The notes under the pieces were generated by a model. The model saw only the letters and a program-made list of their open reading frames with translations. It did no database searches and was not told where the DNA came from. The position numbers were made by a program, and so were the translations under genes. Source: Tetmemena sp. SeJ-2015 (Eukaryota; Ciliophora; Spirotrichea; Sporadotrichida; Oxytrichidae). Taken from it: DNA of 64,000 bases. The DNA lies in NCBI GenBank assembly GCA_027382625.1, contig JAJKFJ010022592.1:62001-126000 (forward strand), in the 5' to 3' direction. Below, one piece after another: positions 36,064 through 56,923 of the stretch (positions are counted from its first letter, which is position 1; every line of letters begins with the position of its first letter).

Positions 36064-37226
36064 TCATAAATATTTTGCCTTGATATTGTGTATGAAATTA
36101 TCAAATCTCCTTGAGTAAGTTTACATAGCTCTTTGAATTTCCTTTTTAAACTTATTGCTAGCCTCTTGTTCACTAATTCCAAGATCTAATCTATTAACCA
36201 TGAATTGAATGTCATCATCTTTTTTAAGTTCTGGCATTCCAGCTGACAGCATGATAAGAAACATGTTAATTAGTTGATGCCCTTCCTTTCTGAGAATATT
36301 ATAAGCCTGACAACACTTTTCCTCAAACTGTTTGAAACTCTTAGACTTCATGGACTCATCGATGTCACTTCCCTTTGAAACAATTGAAAGCTAGTCTTCA
36401 TCAATAGACATAACTGACTCACTCAAATCCCTAATATCATCCTCCGAAAGTGGCTTACGCAACTTAACTTTAGCCTACTACTTGTTCAGAGGACCTCCAT
36501 TCACAAAATAGGCTAGCTCTTTAGAAAAGACAAAAGGATCGCGTTCTCTCTTAACTCCGAATTTCTTCTTCACATTTCCCAGGAAATGGCCAAAATCGAT
36601 ATGAAGAAAGTTTCCCTCCTCACGGTTTATCATTATGTTATCAGGATGGCGATCTCCCAAACCTAGCACATAAGAAGCTACACAATAGCCTGCTGTTGAA
36701 GAAATAAAACGGTCCCTCATTTTGCGCAGTCTTTCTTCCCACTCTTTGGGATATCTCTTCTTCAGATAGTGCTCCATATATCTCTCAATCGAGTCGTCCG
36801 AGAAAGTATTGAAAACGGAGCGCTTGTATTAAATATACGCCTTCAAAAACTAAAAATTAAGACAATTTTGCCAAAGTTTTGCAGTTTCCGACGAATTAAA
36901 ATAATTTAATTTATTTTTAATTCTATATGTCCTTGCTCACAATCTGTTCCCACCACCTTATAGGGAGTCATTGCCAGGTCAAGATTATTAGCCAGCCATA
37001 TCTTGTCCATGATGTAGATTCATTCAAATTACACATCAGAATTTATAGAACTATATAAGATAATCTAAAGAGTCAAAATATCCTATCTGAGATCATCTCC
37101 ATTTTTAAATAGAGCAGTCATAGGATCTCCACCCGGCTACATATTCTGGCAGGTGACAAACAAGGGGACCTTTTTAGAAGAAAACACAGTCATCTTCTCA
37201 TACATGAAATCCTTAACGATGATCTT
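36064..37226 (-). CDS. Phosphoinositide 3-kinase, kinase-domain half (inverted block of a scrambled gene)
   Basis: Minus-strand MDSs encode the catalytic domain of a class I-type PI3K, which phosphorylates the 3-position of phosphoinositides at membranes. After the pointer AAGATCATC come [20 protein letters not shown], the ATP-site Lys segment [18 protein letters not shown] and [20 protein letters not shown]. The catalytic loop follows, [14 protein letters not shown], then the DFG-like [20 protein letters not shown] of the activation loop. The C-lobe shows [20 protein letters not shown] sequence (here [18 protein letters not shown]), and the end is [19 protein letters not shown] at 36064-36066. 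This is the expected C-terminus of the family. Three IESs interrupt it. There is no helical, C2 or Ras-binding part on this strand; those lie on the plus strand at 37451-42302, ending at the same pointer inverted. Confidence 0.9.
36844..36862. other. IES, 19 bp, pointer TTG
   Basis: Pointer (CAA on the plus strand) at 36844-36846 and 36863-36865. Removal joins CKTLAKL to [15 protein letters not shown] in frame. Confidence 0.75.
36894..36918. other. IES, 25 bp, pointer AATT
   Basis: AATT at 36894-36897 and 36919-36922. Removal gives [15 protein letters not shown], matching the conserved Gly-x-Ile-Glu segment of PI3K followed by the Asn...Thr motif. Confidence 0.85.
37011..37058. other. IES, 48 bp, pointer ATC
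   Basis: Pointer (GAT on the plus strand) at 37011-37013 and 37059-37061. Removal gives DILTLQIIMDKIW, the family consensus, and removes in-frame TGAs. Confidence 0.85.
37218..37226 (-). other. Inverted pointer, first copy (PI3K)
   Basis: AAGATCATC on the minus strand at the start of the kinase-domain block. The same 9 bp stand on the plus strand at 42294-42302. Confidence 0.9.
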
Positions 37227-37450
37227 ACAAAATTTATGATCAAACAAATAAAACTATAAGAACAGCGCAAGATAAATTAATTTAGATAGATCTGACATAA
37301 AATGGATCGTTCAAAGAATTAACGTGGAAATCCTAATTCATAAACGCAGAATAATACTTAGATGAATTAAGTAAGTCATTAACTTATACACTTTTTATTT
37401 TTTCATCACTATACCTATGCTTATAATAGTAATTTGGGAAGAGAAAAGCG
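37227..37450. other. Spacer between the two divergent PI3K blocks
   Basis: About 220 bp separating the kinase-domain block (minus) from the PI3K N-terminal block (plus). A minus-strand frame here happens to read on from the kinase block (NSSKYYSAFMNQDFHVN) but is bypassed when the pointers are joined. It should hold the 5' end of the gene and germline-limited DNA. Confidence 0.5.
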
Positions 37451-40400
37451 ATGGGATAAAATCAAATGGGAAACTAATATTCCTATTCTTAGTAGCAGCA
37501 GTTTTACTAGGAGTTTACCCTAGCATTACACGATTCAAGATCCCTCTGTCATGACTTTTGCAGGAAAGGTAAATACATAAATGCATCAACAGCAGCAGTA
37601 GCAGATGTTTTATGGAGTTGGTTAAAATTAAGGACAGCAGTAATTCAACATTAACAACTCTGTTATTTAGGAGGTGCAATCATCTCAAATGGAATAATCT
37701 TCGCGTATGTACACTTCCCGACGAACAACCATGATAGATCTCAACAAAGACATATTACGTTTTATTAGAAAATTTAATAAAATATATTTTACATAGAGTA
37801 TTAAGAAAAGTAAACAAAGAATGGCAAAAGACAGCAACAGTAGACATAAGATGTCTAGCAATAGCAGAGGAGAAATTAATAGCAAAACATTTAGAGTTAT
37901 CAAACAGTCAGTAAAGATGCACAAAAAGCTATGGCTAGTAGAGAAAGAAATAACAACAGTCAACAGCAGTAAAATCTTTAAATCATGAACAATAATAGTA
38001 ATTCTGCCTAAGCTTTAACAATCCCAAGACTCAATTTCATGAACTTTTCTTCTCAAGGATAAAAAGGGTAGACTTCTAATAATAATTAATATTAGAAACA
38101 ATTCTATTTTTGATTTTATCAACAATGTAAATTTATGTTCTCTTCTTCAATTAATTCAATAATACTAGTCTATTACTAGCTCATAAAATAATTTCAAATA
38201 ATCGATGTTGACTTAAATTAATGGACAAAAAGGAGGAGGATTAGATAGCCATAGAGGCTTGGCAGAGAGGAGCAATTTTAATAGTAACAATCCTCTTAAA
38301 AGTACTACAAGTGCTAAGACTATTATAAGTAACAGTCATTATTAACAATTAAATTCTTGTTGATAGATATCTTATATGACAGATACTACTATTTAAATTT
38401 TTAAATAATTATTTTAGTCAGTTGAAATCTGCAAGATTGCGAGGCCATTAAGCCGATTCAGAAATGACTCATACTGACTTCACAGAGACTTAAAATGATG
38501 AGGATGATCATGATTTTAACCAAGGCGGGTTTATTGGGCTATCAGCTGCTGTAAGTATGGGCGGAGGTATTGGTTTAGGAGGTCCTATAATAGATGGAAA
38601 TGACACTGGCTCAGATCAGTCTTCATAGGATATGGATGACACAACTTACACAAACATCACTCATCATCACATCAACCTTGGAGATCATTATTCAAATCTT
38701 GGCTCAGGTCCAAACCAGTTTTAGCACCTATGGGGCCATTATGTGTTATTCCTTGATCCAGAAAGCTTTATTTACTACCGCAAAGATTTGAAGAGAGATG
38801 ATTACATAGTACTCGAGCCTCAGATGGATGATAGCCTAAGGGAAAAGTTTCAATAAGCAAATAAGATTCATCTCTATAAGATAAGAAAGCTGCTAGTTCT
38901 AGATGGATTTTCTTGGAATTTTAAAGGTGAAGCAGATCTCTATCGTAGAAGACCTTTCCCTCGTTAGTTTTTGCAAAACGAAGCCAGTGATTATCCATGT
39001 TACGTCTTCTAATCAGAGTTATCGAAAGCTTTTAATCATAAAGGAGAAATTGAAGCGATTATAGAGCTCATGGAGTATAAGACTCAAATGTATTATGAAT
39101 CTGGCGGCTAGATAAATCTGGATGAAGATTTTGTCATTCAGTTCAATGAGTCCCTTGTGAACTCAACCAAAGAATTCATTAAGAATATTCTTAGAAAAGT
39201 TTATGCAAAGTTCAAATTCAAAATCAAGCCCCGTCCTCACCATCAGCTTATTCTAAAAGCCGACGGTTATAGAGAGTACTTTGAGGGTAACTATCAGCTT
39301 TTATAATATGAAAGAGTACGTGCATGCCTTAGAAAGAATGAAAAAATGCGTCTCATACTAACTGAAATTCCCGTTAATTACAGAGACAAGCGCTTTCCTC
39401 CTATTTTCAAAATAGCTCTAGATGTTCCACCCGCAAATTAGGTAAACCAATACCAAATACAATAGTAGAACTAATATGCTTAGCCAAATATAACTGGATA
39501 GCCAATTAATTTCGGAGATGATTAGAGTAACATACTAGCTCAGCAACAAGCTAATCTGTAATTGCAAAATAATAACGAAGACGACAACTTTAACTTCAAT
39601 TTCATCTCTAACTCTTCTCCTTACTTTTGGTATCCTCCTGTTTAAAATATCCGATTGCATTATGAAAAAATGATGAATAAGAGATAATAAAATCCTTCAG
39701 GAGGAGTTGGCTTGAGCTCATATAACTTTGGAACTAATGGAAGTGGCGCTATTGGAGGAGGCTTTGGTACATAAGCTTCTATAATGGGATAATTTAATTA
39801 GCAGCAAGAAAAGTTTTTGCGAAAAGTTGTCTATGTAGCCCCTGAAAAAGATAAGGTTAGCTTGACTGAGCATCGTCACCTTACAGGGGGTAAACTAAAA
39901 TCACTTTTAAATTAATATTTTTAATTTTTAAAGCAGATAAACTAAAACTGAAAATAGTTTACAACTCTCTCTAAATAAAACGAGTAAATTATCTTACTAA
40001 GTGGTGAATGCAATTGGAGATTCAAATTCAAATTAGTGGGAATAGAAAGACTGAATGTGCTTTTCAATGAGATTAAGTAAAGAGTGGCTACTGAAAATTT
40101 AAATACAGAACCTAGAAATGTCACTCTTAAGCCTTCTAAGTTGGTTAACAGGATTTTTTAAAGCATAAATTTCGATTTTTTTTAGGAAATAGTAGACAGC
40201 AACAGGCACTAAGCCAGATTCAAGTCAAAGTGAGGGATACGGATCTGTGTAAAATTCAAGTACAGTGATTAGTGGTGGTGATTTCTCAGGATCAAGCTCT
40301 TCTTCGACTGGCCATTCCGCATCAGAACGATCAGCGTTGGGTGATTCAAATAGCCGAACAAGTTCTCGAAAACAAGGCAATGGCAATTTCTTGAAATGGT

Positions 40401-42302
40401 TTAAAAGAAATGCTAAGGCACTTGAAAAGCAAGAGGAGGAAAAGCGTGCAGCTACTGCAGTTAAAAAGCTCAAAGCAGAGGAAGAAAGTAACGTAGTTAC
40501 AGGCAAGAGTGATGTACTACCATATTTACTCAAGAAAACTATGAAAGCATATCAATAAACCAAAGAGAAAGAGGAAAGAGAGAGAGGCAAAAGCAAAGGC
40601 AAGAAGGGAGAGGAGAAGGCTGAATTCTAATTCAAGAAAAAGAAAGGAAAGCACGGACATGATGCTAAGCATACATTTACGGAAGAAGAGGAAAATTATC
40701 TTTGTAAAGAACTAGCTATTATTGAAACACCTTATTGCAATTTCAGCAATAATTTTGACACAATCAATCATTACTAGAATATACTTTCGTAAGCTTATAT
40801 TCTTTGTCAATCATATTTTAGGAGCACTTATCCTAGAGTCACTCCTTTAAAGCTCATCGTGGAATGTACATTATTTCATGGATGTGAGACCTTAACTCAA
40901 ACTGTTTACTCAGAGGAGGCCTATTTCAATAGTACTGTCAGATTTAATTAATGGATTAATTTTGGCAATCTAAGAGTAATCATAACTTCCTTGCTTTAAA
41001 TTTTTTTAGTACTGCCAAATCCCAATGAAGACAAGACTCTCTTTCAACATAATTTTGCTGACCAAAGAGGGTCATCAACTCACAATAGGATGTGTATCAA
41101 TAAATCTATTCGATGAGAAAGGACGGTTTAGAAACGGCTTGAGGGAACTAAATGTGTGGCCTTTTTACGAGCTTGATGAGAGATTAGGTTGTATGAAAGA
41201 ATACAATGGAATGACAGTACTTTAGGCGTAGGCCAAAGATTTTCATAAGCTCATAGATTCTCTATTCACAAAGCTGGTCATTGAATTTGAAAACTTTAAT
41301 TTTCCATTCTACTACAGCAGTAGAGATGAGAAAAAGATTGACTTTTACAAACTCTCAACTAACAAAGAGGATAGAGATGATAAAACTAATCTCATCAATG
41401 TTTATAAATTTTAAGTTAAATTGAAGTACTATAAAATTTATGTATAAGTCAAAAATTAAGATTTGGCGAAGCTCAAAAGATATCTTAACTAAAATCCACT
41501 AACAAAATTCGATGAATCTTATTATAAAAGTTGAAAATTTTTACATGACACGATAAAGAGGGATCTATTTAAGTGCAGAGAACATTATTAAACCCATCCT
41601 TAGGGACTCCCAATATTTCTGAGAAGTGTGTAATGGAATCGTCCCATTCAAGTTAACGAAGTTTATAAGATGCTTCAAAATTGGGCTCCTATGAAACCTG
41701 AGGAGGCCATATCTCTACTTGATGCAAAATTTCCCGATGAAAGAGTGAGACAATATGCAGTTACTAGAATTTCATAACTCTCTGATGATGATCTAGCAAT
41801 TTCTTTTCCTATTAATTTTTAGCACTATACATGCTTTAGTTTGCCTAGGCGCTACTTTTTGAAGAATAGCATCTCTCACCTCTTGCAGAGATGCTTATAG
41901 AACGTTCTTTGAGAAACCCTTATGTTGTTGGTCATGCCTTTTATTGGTCTCTGAAAAGTAACTCAATTAAATTTACTTTAATCCTTGCAAATATAAACTT
42001 GTATCTTAAACCATCATATGAGAGATACTATAACAGTATTGAGAAAATAACTAAATCTTAAACTTAAATACTATGTGCTGCTTGAGCAATTTCTGATGTT
42101 GTGTGGTAAGTTCAAAGAAGAGATTTGGATTCAGCAAAAGGTCAATACCTCACTTAAAGCTGTGAGTGAAAACGTTGTTCATAATAGATATAAAGAAAAG
42201 ATCCCTTTCTCTGACGTTAAGGAAAGGGCAAGATATGATCTGAGGCAACAAAGAAAGAAACTACCTTTTCTCTTTACAATGACAATAGATCCAAAGATCA
42301 TC
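37451..42302 (+). CDS. Phosphoinositide 3-kinase, N-terminal half (RBD, C2, helical domain)
   Basis: Starts MGQNQMGNQYSYSQQQQFYQ with Gln-rich low-complexity blocks to about 38450. Domains in order: N-terminal region about 38720-39180 (HYVLFLDPESFIYYRKDLKR); Ras-binding-like domain about 39200-39400 (LKADGYREYFEGNYQLLQYE); Ser/Gly/Lys-rich linker; C2 domain about 40000-41330 (SGECNWRFKFKLVGIERLNV, INLFDEKGRFRNGLRELNVW); helical domain about 41570-42200 (NWAPMKPEEAISLLDAKFPD, SPLAEMLIERSLRNPYVVGH). The segment LRQQRKKLPFLFTMTIDPKI equals the linker before the kinase domain. Coding ends at pointer AAGATCATC (42294-42302) and should continue at 37226 on the minus strand, giving [17 protein letters not shown] 34-nt intron and several IESs interrupt it; those at 37750-38450 and 39900-40230 are only partly understood. 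Confidence 0.88.
40976..41009 (+). other. Spliceosomal intron (34 nt) in PI3K C2 domain
   Basis: Starts GTAATCAT and ends TTTTTAG. Removal joins NQWINFGNLR to YCQIPMKTRLSFNI, as expected in C2 domains of PI3K. Confidence 0.8.
41794..41819. other. IES, 26 bp, pointer TAGCA
   Basis: TAGCA at 41794-41798 and 41820-41824. Removal gives LSDDDLALYLM-type sequence, here DDDLALYMLQFAQALLFEEQ, the helical-domain consensus. Confidence 0.9.
42025..42067. other. IES, 43 bp, pointer ATACTA
   Basis: ATACTA at 42025-42030 and 42068-42073. Removal gives PSYERYYVLLEQFLMLCG in frame. Confidence 0.9.
42294..42302 (+). other. Inverted pointer, second copy (PI3K)
   Basis: AAGATCATC on the plus strand where the N-terminal block ends; matches 37218-37226 in opposite orientation. 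Joining preserves the frame. Confidence 0.9.
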
Positions 42303-42337
42303 AAAATAGAGTAATTAAGGTTAGGATAGGGAATAAC

Positions 42338-45300
42338 ATGGTGAAATATTATAATATTTGTGAATATATAAACGATGCAATCTCAATAATGTAAGAAACC
42401 CCTTTTATTGACAAGGTACTTATTTACACTTATGTTTTAGATAATGGTCTTATAAGCAAGGATAAATTTGCTTACAGATCGATTCTTGCTAATGAAAACA
42501 TGATTCTCAACAAATATGCTTCTAGTACTCCAGCTAATCATTATATTGTATTGTTATCTTATTTAATTTGACTCATTTTTTAAATGAAGGCCCAGTTAAT
42601 GGAGATCATTATTTACCAAAATAGAGAAAAACTGATGCTTTAGGCTTTGGATAACTCCATAATTTAGGAAGCTAGCAGTCTTAAAATCACGTGATTTCTT
42701 TTGATCAAAATTACATCATTTAAAACATAGATAAATTAAATGAGAAAATTCAGAAGACTACCAATCTTAGTTACAAGGATAGGGAAAGAGAAAGTCAATT
42801 AAAAATGGAAATAGCAATTCATTAACCTTTAGTTTAAAGTTTGAGTCTTTCATTATTTTAAACCCATCATAAAAGCCAGTAACTTAATTCGCAATAGCTT
42901 TAGGCTCAGGGAAGTAATCTAAATGGCGGTGTCAAATCTAGAATAAGCACAAAGGTAAATCCGCTAATGGCAGGAATGGACTTCTTTAGACAGCGAACTC
43001 TAATGAAAGGTGAGATGAGTCCATATATGGGAGTTGCCCAGGTAAATCAATCTCATTTAGTTGGAAGTAATGGTAGCAATCAAGCACCAAACTCTCCAGC
43101 CCCAATTTCGCCAATGCTTCCTCCATCAGATAGAACATCATAAGAACTTATATATTATGATAAAATTACTTTCATCTTCTCCTTATCACAAAAGAATGAC
43201 AATAGATCGTAGAGCGCTTGGAGGAGGACCTAATATTCATGATCTGCTGGGGGTTTCTGCTCCTCACCATCACGGCAGTAGCAATAATGCAAAGTCTCTT
43301 GGACTTTCTCCTTTAGTTGCGCCTTAAATATAAACTGCAAATGGAAATAAAAAGAATAGTATGAGTCTAGGTATCCCTATACCAAATATAAACTCCACCC
43401 ATGCGCACGAAATTCTTATGAGTGGAGACAGGAATCTAGTCCCTCCTTCAAAAAGTAAAAGAAATACAAATAGAACCAATAAAAATGGAGATAAGAGAGT
43501 CAGAAATTCGTAACTAGGAATAAATTCAAGAGCGAGTGTTGCGAGTCATTAAAGCAAAACTAGTAAGAGATCGGCAGTATCTGCTAATTGGAATGAAGGG
43601 ATAAGCTTGCCTCAAGAGCTATAAAGAGGGAGTATAGAATATGAATCCTCTTCTTCTCAAGAAGAATATTCAAGCAGGAGACCTTCCAACGCCTCTGCTT
43701 AATTTTTTTTAATTTGCAAGACCTAGAGTATCAGTGAGAAAAGAAAGAGTCATTCCTAATTTTAGGCATAATTGGTATAACCTTGAAATTAATTTTGATT
43801 GACCTAGAGTAGCCAGGCTTAAAGCATGTAGAAACTTTCAAGTCGATGTAAAATGATGCAAGATCAGGGTTCTAAAATAAACTGGCTAAACTCCTCCCTC
43901 TTAAGGACTAAAAGCAAGGTGGAAATGAAGATTATTTAGGTGTTGCAAATAGAGTATCCTTATAGGATAAGATGTTAGAGCTATCACCAGCAATTCTGAA
44001 GAAGAACAATACTTATCGACATAGATTCGATGGTCCATAGGTAGACATTATGAATTCTGAAAACTTTGACGATGAGTATCAGAGTGGAGGGGATTCTAAT
44101 AGTAGTGGGTTTAAATCTGATAGTGTTGACAGTGACTCTGTCAGTGCATCATCAGATAGCGAGGAACAAGAAAATGAAAGTCAGAAAGAAGATAATGATG
44201 AGGATTTTGTTGTGCCTGGAAAAGCATTTAAGAAGAAGAAACTTAATGGGAAATATATCTATGCTTTTTAGATTATAATGAGATTGATGTGGCAAAGTAA
44301 TTTCTAATAGGGAGCGCCTTTGGAGGTGGTAACGGGGGAGATTAATCTAACGGAAACTCAAATGCTGCATCAGGAGGAGGATTATAGAAGAAGTGATTAA
44401 GCAAAGATGACCCAAGAACAATGAAAAAGAACAAAACCTTTAAAACGGATATCGGGAAAGATGAGCAAAGAGGGAAGAATAAGTAGTTGCTAGGATTAGA
44501 TAGTGAGGATTAAGATAGTGACTAAGATGATGAAAGTGATTAACAAAGTGAGGACAGCTTGAAAAGTGATATAAACACAGTCGATCTGAATAGAGAAGAT
44601 GGTGATAGCGGTGGAAATATGGCTATCACAGAGAGAGCTGAATTTGGAGACACTTCGAGGCAAAAAACGTTTGGAAGAGGATCTACATAATTCCAAAGAT
44701 AGCAAATTCATATGACAAAGAAATCTCCAGATGTAGAGAACAAAAAGGGAAAGAAAAGTAAGAAAGAAAAGAAAAAAGATGAGAATAGAAAGAAGGGGAA
44801 AAGTAAGAAAAGAAGTAAAAAGGAAGACCTGTTAAGGAAAAAGAGTCGAGTGCTCAAGAGAAAGTAGATATTATCAAATTATAGAGCATCTTTCTGTATT
44901 ATGCATAGTCCTTCATTTAATACTCTTTAAAGGCGATAACGACTTGGGAGATGGAGATTCAAATAAAATTCTAGACGAGCAAATCTAAAAGGATAGCTTG
45001 AGACTTAGAGACATCTATAAATTCAAGAAGTTTTTAATATTACCTGACGATCCTTTCAAAGAGAGGTGGGAAATCTTAATTATACTGGTACTTCTATTTA
45101 CTGCTGGCGCAACCCCATATCGAATTGCATTTATAGAGAATGATGACATAGTATGGAGTTCACTTGATAATGTAGTAGACTGCATTTAAAAACAGATCTT
45201 TTGTTTTATATATATTTTTAATGGATTTTCTTTCTAGATATTATTCTGAACTTTCTCACTGCTTTCTAAGATAAGAATGACGAACTAATAACTGATAGGT

Positions 45301-50328: not shown

Positions 50329-53300
50329 TCAATCCAAAGGCTAATCTTTCTTTTCTTCATTCTAATTAACTATTTTTCCAACTCGCTTTTACTTGCTTTT
50401 TAGAAACTAAAATTCTAAATTATTAAGACTATAAAGATTATAAAGAAACATTTCTATTTCTAAATTCCTTTATCGATGTTAAAGCATTACTAATTGAATT
50501 TGTGTTATCCATGTTTAGTATAATTGAGTTGGTTTCATCTTGGTATCTTTTGACTTTAACCTTTCTGTCTTTGACATTATAACAGAACTTTGATCTGACT
50601 TTAATTGGTTTTAAGTATTACTCTTTGGCTTTACTTCTACTCTCTTGATTCCGCATATCTACTAGTAGCTCCCACATATTTTCCTCATCTTAATATCCAG
50701 CTACTGGAATTCCTTGTAACTCCTATTCCTCCATTATTTGAGAGTAGAGTTTGTGTTTGAGTTCAAATTTTGTGTAGGAAGACTCTTTATTTCTTTAATT
50801 TTAACGTGAATTGGATTTATGATCTTAACAATTATCTGGCTAGGGGTTTAGCAGGTAATGATTAGATTTCTCAAACCTTTTGGGATCTTCAATATTGTCA
50901 AGATTACTTTAAGCTAACTTATAGTGATATATTACCAATCAATATAGCTGATATTAAAGCTTCTTGTATCTAGGAGTTGGATTTTTAATTAGGATTCTCT
51001 TATGAGGTTTCTTTATAAAAATTAAAGACTTTTTAAAAGCACAAGACTTTATTCTTCGTAGTAAGGCAAAAGCGTATTCTTGAAATATTAATCCACTGAT
51101 AGCTTCAGCATATCATCAATCATTCGAGGGAGATAAACTTAGAGCAAGCGAGAGCTCTCTTCAATGCATGGGTTAGTGTTTACCTCTATCAGCCACACAT
51201 TCAAGTCCTCGTCTAGAATAAAGTCATACCCAAATAATTCAAAGCACCCTTTACGCTAAAGTTAATAATTTAACATGCTGATTAGGGTCTAGGCTTGATT
51301 TAGTTGCAAACATCGTTTTAACTATCAGCTACTTGAATTTAAAAACCATTTCATCTCTAACACTCACTTCATATCCTCTCTCATCAAGATAACTTTAGAA
51401 AGCGTTATAAGACATCTAGTTAAAAATTAAACTATAATTATCTTTTAAAGTTGCCATCTTCAAAATGTCCATAGTTCTAAGAAAACTTTTAAATTGCATT
51501 ATTAGTCAAATGCACAAACTGATCATCGGGATTTTAAGGATCTATATTAAATTTGGAGCTTGAAGTTCTCAAGTACCCTTCTTTGAACATATATACACAG
51601 CCATCAAAGTTTACTAAGACCCAAACTCTGACGTCAAATTAAATATTAACTATTATAAGTTGTAAATTTTCTCTCATGAATGAGGAGTGGTCTTTCTATG
51701 TATTTTTGAAGAATAAACGAGTTATGCTTAATTTTAATCTACTGCTTTGATATTACTCTAGTCCTATTTTGATTTTACAGTTAGTTCCTTGGGTCTATTA
51801 CATTTAAAGGCTTATCAATTATGGAGTTGTTGTTCGGGGCTTCAAAAGCAGTTATTTGTTCTAAGGAATCTCTAAGTTTATCCTAACTATTTTTATGGAG
51901 AATCATTCTTATCTATTATTCCTTCTTATGTTTGATTTGCTTAAAGTAAATGAGCAATTACATTTTATTAACATTTATAAAGTCTTGGATCTAGTCTTTA
52001 GAAATCTTTTGTCGCTAATATACTTTACTCTTTTTAGTCTTCAACCTACTTAGTTTATTTCTCAATAATTGCTTCAGCATAATAAAGATAAATAGAGATT
52101 TAATTAAATTAAGCAGTCTTCTTGAAACCTTCGCAATATTGATTTATAAGAGATTTTATTGTTGAAAGATTATTGCAGACATGTATACCCCTACCTCTAT
52201 TAAGTTTAGTTGGTTTCAAAAGCCAAAAATTATGTCCAGAAAAATGGCAAAGAGGGAATTCATATTTTTACTGTTGCAGGAACAAATAAGGTGATTGAAT
52301 ATTCTATTTAGGTATTTGATTAGCGAAAGACTGAAGCATGGGAGTTGCTTTAATTTGAGTGATTTTTCTTTTCAATGGAGAAAACTATGCACTTGTTTCT
52401 AACTAGTCCTTCACCTCCAAGTTTAAGAGTGAAATTTTATTAAGTTCGAGAAAATAAGTTTTCCTAGTCATTTTAAAGATTGGAGCTCTCTAAATCAACT
52501 TCATGATCCTCTTCTTCATTAATATTTCTGAGATCGTTAGTAGTTATATCTTAGACTTCTTAATGAAGCAGGTTTTTAAATATTTCATTTTTGTCCTACT
52601 TAAATTACCAACTTTTGGGGAAAGCTTTTGCTATAAGATTTTCGTAAAGTCTTGCTTAGTGTTGATTACTTCCGATATATTATTTTGATGATAACTCCAT
52701 AAATTTAGAGTAAAACTTAGCTGCTTTATATTTGAATAAATACACAATAAATCCTTTTTTGGCTTTCTTCTTATTATCTTCGAGTGCATAGAAAAATTGA
52801 ATAAAAGGGGCAATGGCCGCATTAAAAAATTTAGCTCCAAGAGTATTATCAATTTCTAAGAAGAAGGTTATTGGCATGTAGTTAAAAACATTCTCCTTTG
52901 CAACATTTTCAGTCTGAAGATTTTAAAACTTGACCATATTTTAGAAAAGCTTGCTTTTCTCAGTAATTTGTTAATGACCTTCAAGATGATTTATAAGTTG
53001 CTTTTAGCAAATAGCATATTAATTTAAAAACATTAAAACTTTAATGTTAAGCATCTCCTGAAAGTGTAAACTGATAGCTTTGATTGTTGTGCTAGTCATA
53101 CCTCAAACCTTGTGAAGTTGGTTGCCACTTAAAATGATAGTTAATGTCTTTATAAGAAATCTCCTTCCAAATAAGACTCCTTCTATTTAGTGCTTATCTG
53201 ATTAACTGAGAATTATTTCCATTTACGATACTGTATCTCAGCTTGTAGGATCTCTATTGTATTTACCCTAAGATATGATTATGCACGAATGAAGGATCAT

Positions 53301-54232: not shown

Positions 54233-56923
54233 TCATTCTTCTCTTGGCACTCTAAGGAGCTCTCTCGTCTTGCTCCATTCGCCCAAAATAGTATCAATGA
54301 GTTCCTGGGAGCTGCCGTATCTGTCAATATAGGAATTGATGATGCTCTCGAAAGACTCCTCATAGAAGCTAACTTGAATATCTGACTCAGAGTTTCTAAC
54401 TAGATTGTTGTTGAGTTCAATTCTGCGAGGCTTCTTCCTCAAAATCACGATGTCTCTGATCTGTAGGAAGAATTCATTCACTGCAGAGTAATGGTCCCAG
54501 AACTTTTGAGCTCTCTCGATGCAGCCTGTGCTCTTGTAGGTCTGCAAAATGAGCAAGAACTTGCGGATCAGTTCTTGACCCTCGGTGAAAAGAAGTTCCT
54601 TATCCAAATGAATCACGAAATCTTCACCAGGCTTAGTGATCTCGAAGTCAACAATCTTTGATTAATTTACACACATAAATGAAATATTCTACTTATGCTA
54701 TGAATCAATTATTGATTGTTGATTTTGGTAGATGAATTGGGAGAAAACATAAGCACCCCATGTATGAGCTTGACCCCATTTCTTGTTTTCAGCATTGAAA
54801 AGTTGAAGTCCAAGGATACCCTTTCTGAATTGGTTCATGACATTAGTCCAGAGAAGATCCTTGATTTCATGTTCTTCAAAACCGAACAAGGTATAAACCT
54901 CTGGTCTTGTGCAAAGATAGAAACCGCATGTGTCAGCTCTGCACTCTTCATAGGCAGCAGAGATGGGGCCGAACTGTGTGTTCCACTCTCCTCCATCAGG
55001 GTAATGGTGAGAAAACTCTTCTCCATTTACTGGGTCGGTGAAGCTTTGTACCTCCTCCATTAGGGTCCCTTGTAGATAAGTTTACCAACTCCGTGTCCTA
55101 GGAGTTCATGGCAAGCAACATGTACTTCGTAGCATCTAGTGGTATTATTCACCAACATCTTAGTTTGATCCTCAGTTGCGAATTTAAGTATAGCTTTAGT
55201 AAAATAAGAATTACATGGCAGAAATGGCATAAGAAGGCATAGAGTTGTTCAAGAACACATTTTTGAATCCTTCATTATCTCTGATATCAGAGAATCGCAA
55301 ATTTAATCTTATAAATTTCTTAAAACATACAAATAAATAACTTAACATAAGGATTATCTATAAAAGGCATAACTATTTAAGTAAATAAAAATTTATGGTT
55401 TACCTGAAAATATTTTAGAGCGTGTTTTTTCTGAAATTTGTTTGATGAGGAGGATAATTTTGTTGCTTCTATAATCCAATTTTTTAATTTTCTTTTAAAT
55501 CCTTGTTTATATTTCGAGAACAATTTCCTTTTTAATGATATCGTCATAGTTGGGGATATTGATACCTAAGGGGCAGCTGTTTGTGGCGAATGCAATGATG
55601 TCCAAAGTAGTGAAATCAGGAGCAAGGAAGTTGTCCTTTTCCATTTCCTTGGGCCATGGGAGTAGAGGGATAACGGACTCGGAGTTCTCAACCAACTTTT
55701 GGAACTTCACTGACTTCTCCTTATCTACGACTGCGACCCATCCCTCAAAGTATGCGCGAATGTTTTCAGGATCGGTGTACACCTCAATCCAGCCAAGATT
55801 GCTCTCAACAACTGGGCCCTTATCTTTGATCCAAGCTCTCTGTGAGTCCTTGTGCAAATCGATGGAGCCAGAAATGAAGTGCTTGATATAAAGATCCAAC
55901 ATCTCTCTTTGATTATCATTGGCAGCGTATTTCTTGGCTTCTTCAAGATATCCGATCACAGGCTTTAAATAATCAGAGAACAATAAATAAACAGTTCCCT
56001 ATGTTAAAATTATGAACTCTCCGTAGGTAACCTTGAATCTGTTATCCTTGTACTCAAAGTCTTGCTCTGACTTCTCTATAGATCCCACGGTTATTTGATA
56101 CACACCATTGCTGTGCTTGAAAGCGCGGGTGTTCAATTTATTATGGTAAATCAAATAAGCATTGAATTACATTTGAATTTTAATGAATGGGTTGATACTC
56201 TGATGGTTCATGAAATCTCTCACTAACTCCAAGTCAGCTTACTTCATTTAAGGACTGAAGTATGCTGTAACACCGCCTTGTTCGGGGAATCCAAGAGTAG
56301 TGTAGGGCTTTCCAATTTCAAAGATTTCATGCTCCACATGAGGCAAGACTTCTTTGAGGACTCTGTTGTACAAAGAATCTTCAACCTGTTTGTGAGGATG
56401 TGAATTCAAAATGGCGTGGAATGTCTCAACTGAGATCTAAGGAACGAACTTGTGATCTCCGAAAGAGTGGTAGTTGCTTATACAAAAGTTAAATTAGGAT
56501 AAATGCTCAAAAATTGCTCATGTTAGCATAGAATCCAGCCACATAAACCAAAGTTATGCAATTCAATTTTAAATAAGATGTTGTTCAAGTTAAGCAATGA
56601 ATTTCTTGAAATCCTCCTCACTAACTCCATTAAATAAAGATGATACAATTTTAATTAGCTAGTGCTGCCTCCTAAAGTGCTGGGATGTTCTTGTCCTAGA
56701 AGAAGACTTGGAAGAATGCAAGCAAAGCAGGAGCCTCATATGAGATTTAGTGAGGTACCATGAGAGCTCCAGCCCAAGAAGCCTTGTAGATGTAGTAGGC
56801 ATAGTTCTTCTCTTGATCTGAGAGAAGCTTCCAAGGTTTTAGGAAGTCAAGATTTTGGACTCTAGTGTCGAGTTAGATGTGTTGCTTTTAGATATAGTAT
56901 AAACATTGTATTTTAAATTGCAT
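54233..56923 (-). CDS. dpp3: Dipeptidyl peptidase III (M49 zinc metallopeptidase)
   Basis: Cleaves dipeptides from the N-terminus of oligopeptides in the cytosol. Starts MQFKIQCLYYIQKQHIQ at 56923; ends GEWSKTRELLRVPREE, TGA at 54233-54235. Family landmarks in order: NYAYYIYKASWAGAMV, VYVAGFYANMSN, SFGDHKFVPQ, AWIKDKGPVVESNLGWIEVY, PDFTTLDIIAFATNSCPLGI, the zinc motif HELLGHGVGKL (about 55085-55110, His-Glu-x-x-Gly-His), and the third zinc ligand in SAAYEECRADTCGFYL. The length, near 720 residues, matches the family. Inserts interrupt it near 56470-56550, 56580-56680, 55320-55500, about 55195-55220 (pointer probably GC) and 54665-54700. Just after the zinc motif, at about 55060-55075, reading shifts by one base without room for an IES; this looks like a single-base loss or sequencing error. 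Confidence 0.9.

Follow-up and report, generated by a model that had tools for sequence, protein, structure and literature searches.

A PI3-kinase gene in two opposite-facing pieces with matching 9-bp pointers: a probable case of gene scrambling in ciliate germline DNA

Results

The window, by which we mean the whole 64-kb stretch of DNA analysed, carries a phosphatidylinositol 3-kinase (PI3K) gene in two divergent parts, with the kinase part lying to the left of the RBD, C2 and helical part and on the opposite strand. The 5' part (37451-42302, plus strand; the start at 37451 is tentative) covers the N-terminal region and the RBD, C2 and helical (PIK) domains, and consists of several MDSs separated by IESs. 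The kinase block (36064-37226, minus strand) covers the end of the linker, the N-lobe and the C-lobe, after which the reading frame ends at a TGA stop at 36064-36066. Between the two lies a spacer (37227-37450, G+C 0.26) that falls outside the joined coding sequence. The nine-base word AAGATCATC closes the helical-linker MDS on the plus strand at 42294-42302 and, as an inverted copy, opens the kinase MDS block on the minus strand at 37226-37218. The two copies are identical over exactly 9 bp, and the flanking bases differ on both sides. This is the inverted pointer that the sequence-only reading had described, and both copies were found where it had placed them.

An open frame on the plus strand at 42305-42568 and onwards starts about 30 bp past the pointer, and it is probably a separate gene. 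Its one relative, P0016, is 86% identical to it over 40% of the query and belongs to no known family, and the plus frame past 42302 gave no Pfam match. Substitutions between two contigs of the assembly in this frame (4/3/3 by codon position) are without third-position bias, which counts against coding. P0016 differs from the frame before LDNGLISKDKF, and this difference suggests that an intron or IES may lie there. Further along the window, a Peptidase M49 gene (54236-56517, minus strand) was present in two collinear frames (profile 4-252 and 315-548 of 548), in which no scrambling was seen, and a tubulin-tyrosine ligase domain (50332-51324, minus strand) had only its last part in frame (profile 229-284 of 292).

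TAA and TAG occurred in frame within conserved kinase domains, while TGA did so in 1 of 28 matches, and sequences were translated with TAA and TAG as glutamine before the Pfam search. A C4A4 28-mer matched 18 times, with 16 of the matches on a single contig and the rest on two others, but the control was uninformative because the word reads the same backwards; no C4A4 repeat was present in the 64-kb window. Judged from this code and these repeats, the DNA probably comes from a spirotrich, and within that group a hypotrich.

On the plus strand, Pfam placed PI3K_rbd (PF00794) at 39151-39369 (profile 35-104 of 106, E 6.6e-07, residues 258-330 of the ORF 38380-39948), PI3K_C2 (PF00792) at 41007-41192 (profile 45-106 of 136, E 2.2e-08, residues 155-216 of the ORF 40545-41531) and PI3Ka (PF00613) at 41559-42031, the last in two frames (E 1.3e-21 and 1.4e-12), in the order proposed from the letters alone. 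Once IESs were removed, the helical domain gave a single continuous match (E 1.8e-41, profile 31-178 of 185). On the minus strand, a PI3_PI4_kinase match lay in 36067-36936, and the 68-residue N-lobe piece gave no Pfam match by itself. A complete kinase domain had been proposed for this strand. The block that encodes it is not a single open frame: two IES-like insertions, and probably a third, interrupt it.

Six short A+T-rich insertions flanked by direct repeats of 3-7 bp, the sixth of them less certain, interrupt the helical and kinase parts, and both parts are open once the six are left out. We placed them by means of relatives, family motifs and both contigs. Three cut the helical part: 26 bp at 41799-41824 (pointer TAGCA), 36 bp at 41964-41999 (pointer AACT) and 43 bp at 42032-42074 (pointer ATACTAT, or ATACTA in the second contig). 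The first, which no relative covers, was placed by frame and family motif, and the other two are absent from P0010, P0011 and P0012; the first and second are identical in the second contig, and the third shows 14 differences between contigs. On the minus strand, the 42-bp insertion at 37016-37057 (pointer ATCT) is absent from P0001 and also from P0005 and P0007, and the 25-bp insertion at 36894-36918 (pointer AATT) is absent from P0005 and, within its reach, from P0007. Relatives thus support the second to fifth insertions (4/6), while the first and sixth are supported by frame and family motif. The sixth, a probable IES of 31 bp at 36839-36869 (minus strand; pointer GGC, or 30 bp with TGGC in the second contig), was picked from 27 candidate deletions listed because it gives the same family-like KTLAYIQ in both contigs. 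Within it the contigs differ by one base in length: in its germline form the window contig carries a frame shift at this site, while the second contig reads open even without the deletion.

None of the six insertions has GT-AG ends in any equivalent placement, which rules out GT-AG introns as the cause of the interruptions. Taken together they have a G+C of 0.18 (0.375 in the MDSs), and 33 of 203 insertion positions differ between the contigs (none in the first two insertions) as compared with 61 of 1725 coding positions. Low G+C and higher divergence both fit IESs; excerpts of a published survey put the G+C of short IESs below 0.2, against ~0.3 in MDSs (PMC7586852). IES-like insertions with direct-repeat pointers mark the DNA as germline (micronuclear).

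Other stretches of the 5' part have features of the same kind. The 10-bp direct repeat TAAACTAAAA occurs at 39891-39900 and 39938-39947 (plus strand), on either side of A+T-rich sequence that lies between the RBD part and the C2 part, and 39891-39947 is likely a further IES. Divergence between the contigs climbs sharply at 38100-38400 (18, 11 and 24 differences in three 100-bp bins), which suggests that the N-terminal part of the gene holds at least one larger IES. A dynamic-programming caller for all IESs was also tried; it removed real coding sequence, and its map was dropped.

A protein collection was searched twice, once with the opening 68 residues of the minus block and once with the closing 79 of the plus block. 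The minus-side search gave nine hits and the plus-side search seven, with one shared, for 15 distinct relatives, all of them short proteins from public contigs that may be macronuclear or micronuclear. Ten of the 15 (P0001-P0007, P0010, P0014 and P0015) align over the joined junction without a gap at it; eight of these are entirely gap-free, while P0004 and P0006 each show a single gap on the upstream side of the junction. As for the rest, P0011, P0012 and P0013 stop short of the junction, P0009 lies wholly beyond it, and in P0008, which is only distantly related, the alignment sets in at the junction itself. The contiguous gene order, with helical and kinase parts unbroken, was seen in these relatives only.

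Homology to the relatives breaks off at the pointer from both sides, as the sequence-only reading had it. In BLASTP of the plus reading against 16 proteins, alignments ended at codon 42300-42302 in 6/6 hits extending past the junction; the other four junction-spanning relatives have only a few residues upstream, so they gave no hit with the plus reading. When the minus reading was extended upstream, the match began at codon 37226-37224 in 10/10 junction-spanning relatives. Residues beyond the pointer on either side matched none of the 16 proteins compared.

The nine-base word by itself was rejected as evidence because shared nine-base words are frequent: the two blocks have 55 9-mer pairs in common in the orientation claimed, and the control, with the orientation reversed, gave 54. 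A run of at least nine identical bases at the five central bases of a fixed register was found in 323 of 2,000,000 random registers, drawn from the whole window, coding or not. The weight of AAGATCATC lies in its position at both homology breakpoints, not in the word.

Joining the halves at the pointer keeps the reading frame, as had been proposed, and the product can be aligned with structures of class I PI3Ks right through the seam. Against p110 beta, the joined helical-kinase product gave E 1.5e-89 as a whole and E 1.5e-74 for the seam-crossing stretch. The joined IES-free stretch also gave Pfam matches to the kinase (E 1.1e-51) and helical (E 1.8e-41) domains, but these flank the seam on either side and do not test it, as the structure alignment and the relatives do. 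The RBD, C2, helical and kinase domains are present in class I order, the order of the class I catalytic subunits (p110 alpha, beta, gamma and delta), and the joined product aligns with these through the linker. The locus differs from them by a Q-rich N-terminal region, recognised by eye, and, in the kinase part, by some 48 extra residues that stay unaligned (432-479 of the joined product). We call the encoded protein no more than class I-like, because class II chains score nearly as well (296.6 bits for one of them against 304.4, among the best 60 of 144 matches).

A second contig, C285, shows 95% identity across 9,155 aligned positions, and we take it as the other haplotype, though it could be a close duplicate. 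It holds both parts in the same orientation, with the same 9-mer at both places, so that the MDSs of one gene lie in different orientation (helical part plus, kinase part minus) in two contigs. Relative P0002, contiguous in its own source, had four matches in the assembly, as opposite-strand pieces (residues 1-69 and 66- or 67-119) on C3228 and C285. A 27-base pattern of the joined junction, allowing at most three mismatches, had no match in the assembly. Searches with P0002 and the junction pattern thus found no contiguous or alternative copy of the gene in the assembly. Searches of viral_contigs and genome_contigs with P0002 returned 4 and 40 pattern matches, of which none was confirmed.

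Counted by codon position, the helical part (663 bases) showed 5/1/26 substitutions between the two contigs, and the kinase part (1062 bases) 1/0/28. An earlier count that included a few IES bases gave 1/0/23 for the C-lobe, 1/1/4 for the N-lobe, 1/0/10 for the helical end and 10/2/54 for the RBD frame. Differences in both halves thus fall at third codon positions, which indicates constraint, as in a working gene.

Discussion

The layout, its exact breakpoints, the contiguous relatives, the IES-like insertions and the constraint on both halves are observed at this locus. They make it very probable that the two opposite-facing pieces, with the 9-bp matching pointers marking their join, are one scrambled PI3K gene. 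Inversion of the kinase block during development, as the sequence-only reading proposed, agrees with the breakpoints, the relatives, the second contig and the IESs; the inversion itself, its timing and the machinery that would guide it we infer from known ciliates. During macronuclear development, each short IES would be excised between its direct-repeat pointers, and the inverted pointers would recombine with each other and so flip one of the blocks, 37227-42293 for instance, with respect to the other. Inverting the 5.07 kb between the pointers would produce a contiguous gene on the minus strand, in which the AAGATCATC pair would join the last 5' MDS to the first kinase MDS, with a single copy of the pointer retained and the frame open through the junction. 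Inversion of the kinase block and inversion of the 5.07 kb are equivalent descriptions, since a single inversion gives the joined gene either way.

Other explanations of the divided gene were considered. Assemblers can be misled by inverted repeats, and the contig might hold a false inversion of a gene that is really contiguous, but a repeat of only 9 bp is not long enough to have this effect. Moreover, the same layout with both 9-mers recurs in C285, making an assembly error unlikely, and the assembly searches turned up no contiguous copy; we consider an artefact highly improbable. The arrangement could alternatively reflect a germline inversion that broke the gene and left a decayed copy, without somatic repair. 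The broken order is the sole support for this, whereas the third-position bias in both halves points to constraint, no other copy was found in the assembly, and a pointer sits exactly at the break, so that we give decay very little credence.

It might also be that nothing is inverted and that the halves serve as distinct genes in the soma, one for a PI3K-like protein that lacks the kinase and one for a kinase domain on its own. The plus frame would end at a TGA (42342-42344) 13 codons past the pointer in both contigs, and an in-frame ATG precedes the kinase block. Against this, homology ends and starts at the same pointer on the two sides, the relatives are contiguous at the junction, and the read-through residues past the pointer match 0/16 proteins; two genes are therefore a most unlikely reading. 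A variant of the scrambled-gene interpretation is that inversion is facultative, with the soma keeping both an uninverted, kinase-less version ending at that TGA and the joined kinase. We think this scarcely probable; if it were true, genome rearrangement would control PI3K signalling.

Scrambling of this kind has long been known, and the PI3K locus is a new example of it. A close parallel is actin I of Stylonychia lemnae. According to excerpts of the published study, its MDSs 1 and 2 lie inverted in the germline and are brought into the gene by inversion, six of its junctions arise through ordinary deletion of IESs, and these IESs are excised before the inversion takes place (PMC2394655). The PI3K locus shares with it inverted germline MDSs, ordinary IESs and a pointer size within the 3-19 bp reported for the genes of that study (PMC2394655). 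Actin I as described there also needs translocation (segments 1, 2 and 9), whereas a single inversion is enough for the PI3K locus as far as it is resolved.

Translocated and/or inverted genes make up 15.6% of genes in Oxytricha trifallax and 13.6% in Tetmemena, with 3613 and 3371 scrambled genes mapped, respectively, in the portions of the comparative study drawn on here, which also describe scrambled pointers in O. trifallax as typically longer than non-scrambled ones (PMC9797194). The PI3K locus resembles these genomes in its germline IESs and pointers, with a scrambled pointer of 9 bp against 3-7 bp for the non-scrambled ones, and it differs in having been worked out without a macronuclear reference. 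In a literature search on scrambled genes and phosphatidylinositol 3-kinase, the kinase term occurred among the matches listed only with autophagy proteins; we do not claim that the locus is unpublished.

With thousands of scrambled genes already mapped, going by those same portions of the study (PMC9797194), the general view of scrambling is unchanged. The locus illustrates that germline sequence together with fragments of relatives can suffice, without a macronuclear reference, to identify a scrambled, inverted gene and to dissect it with single-base precision. It also places a conserved signalling kinase among the genes that appear to need programmed inversion.
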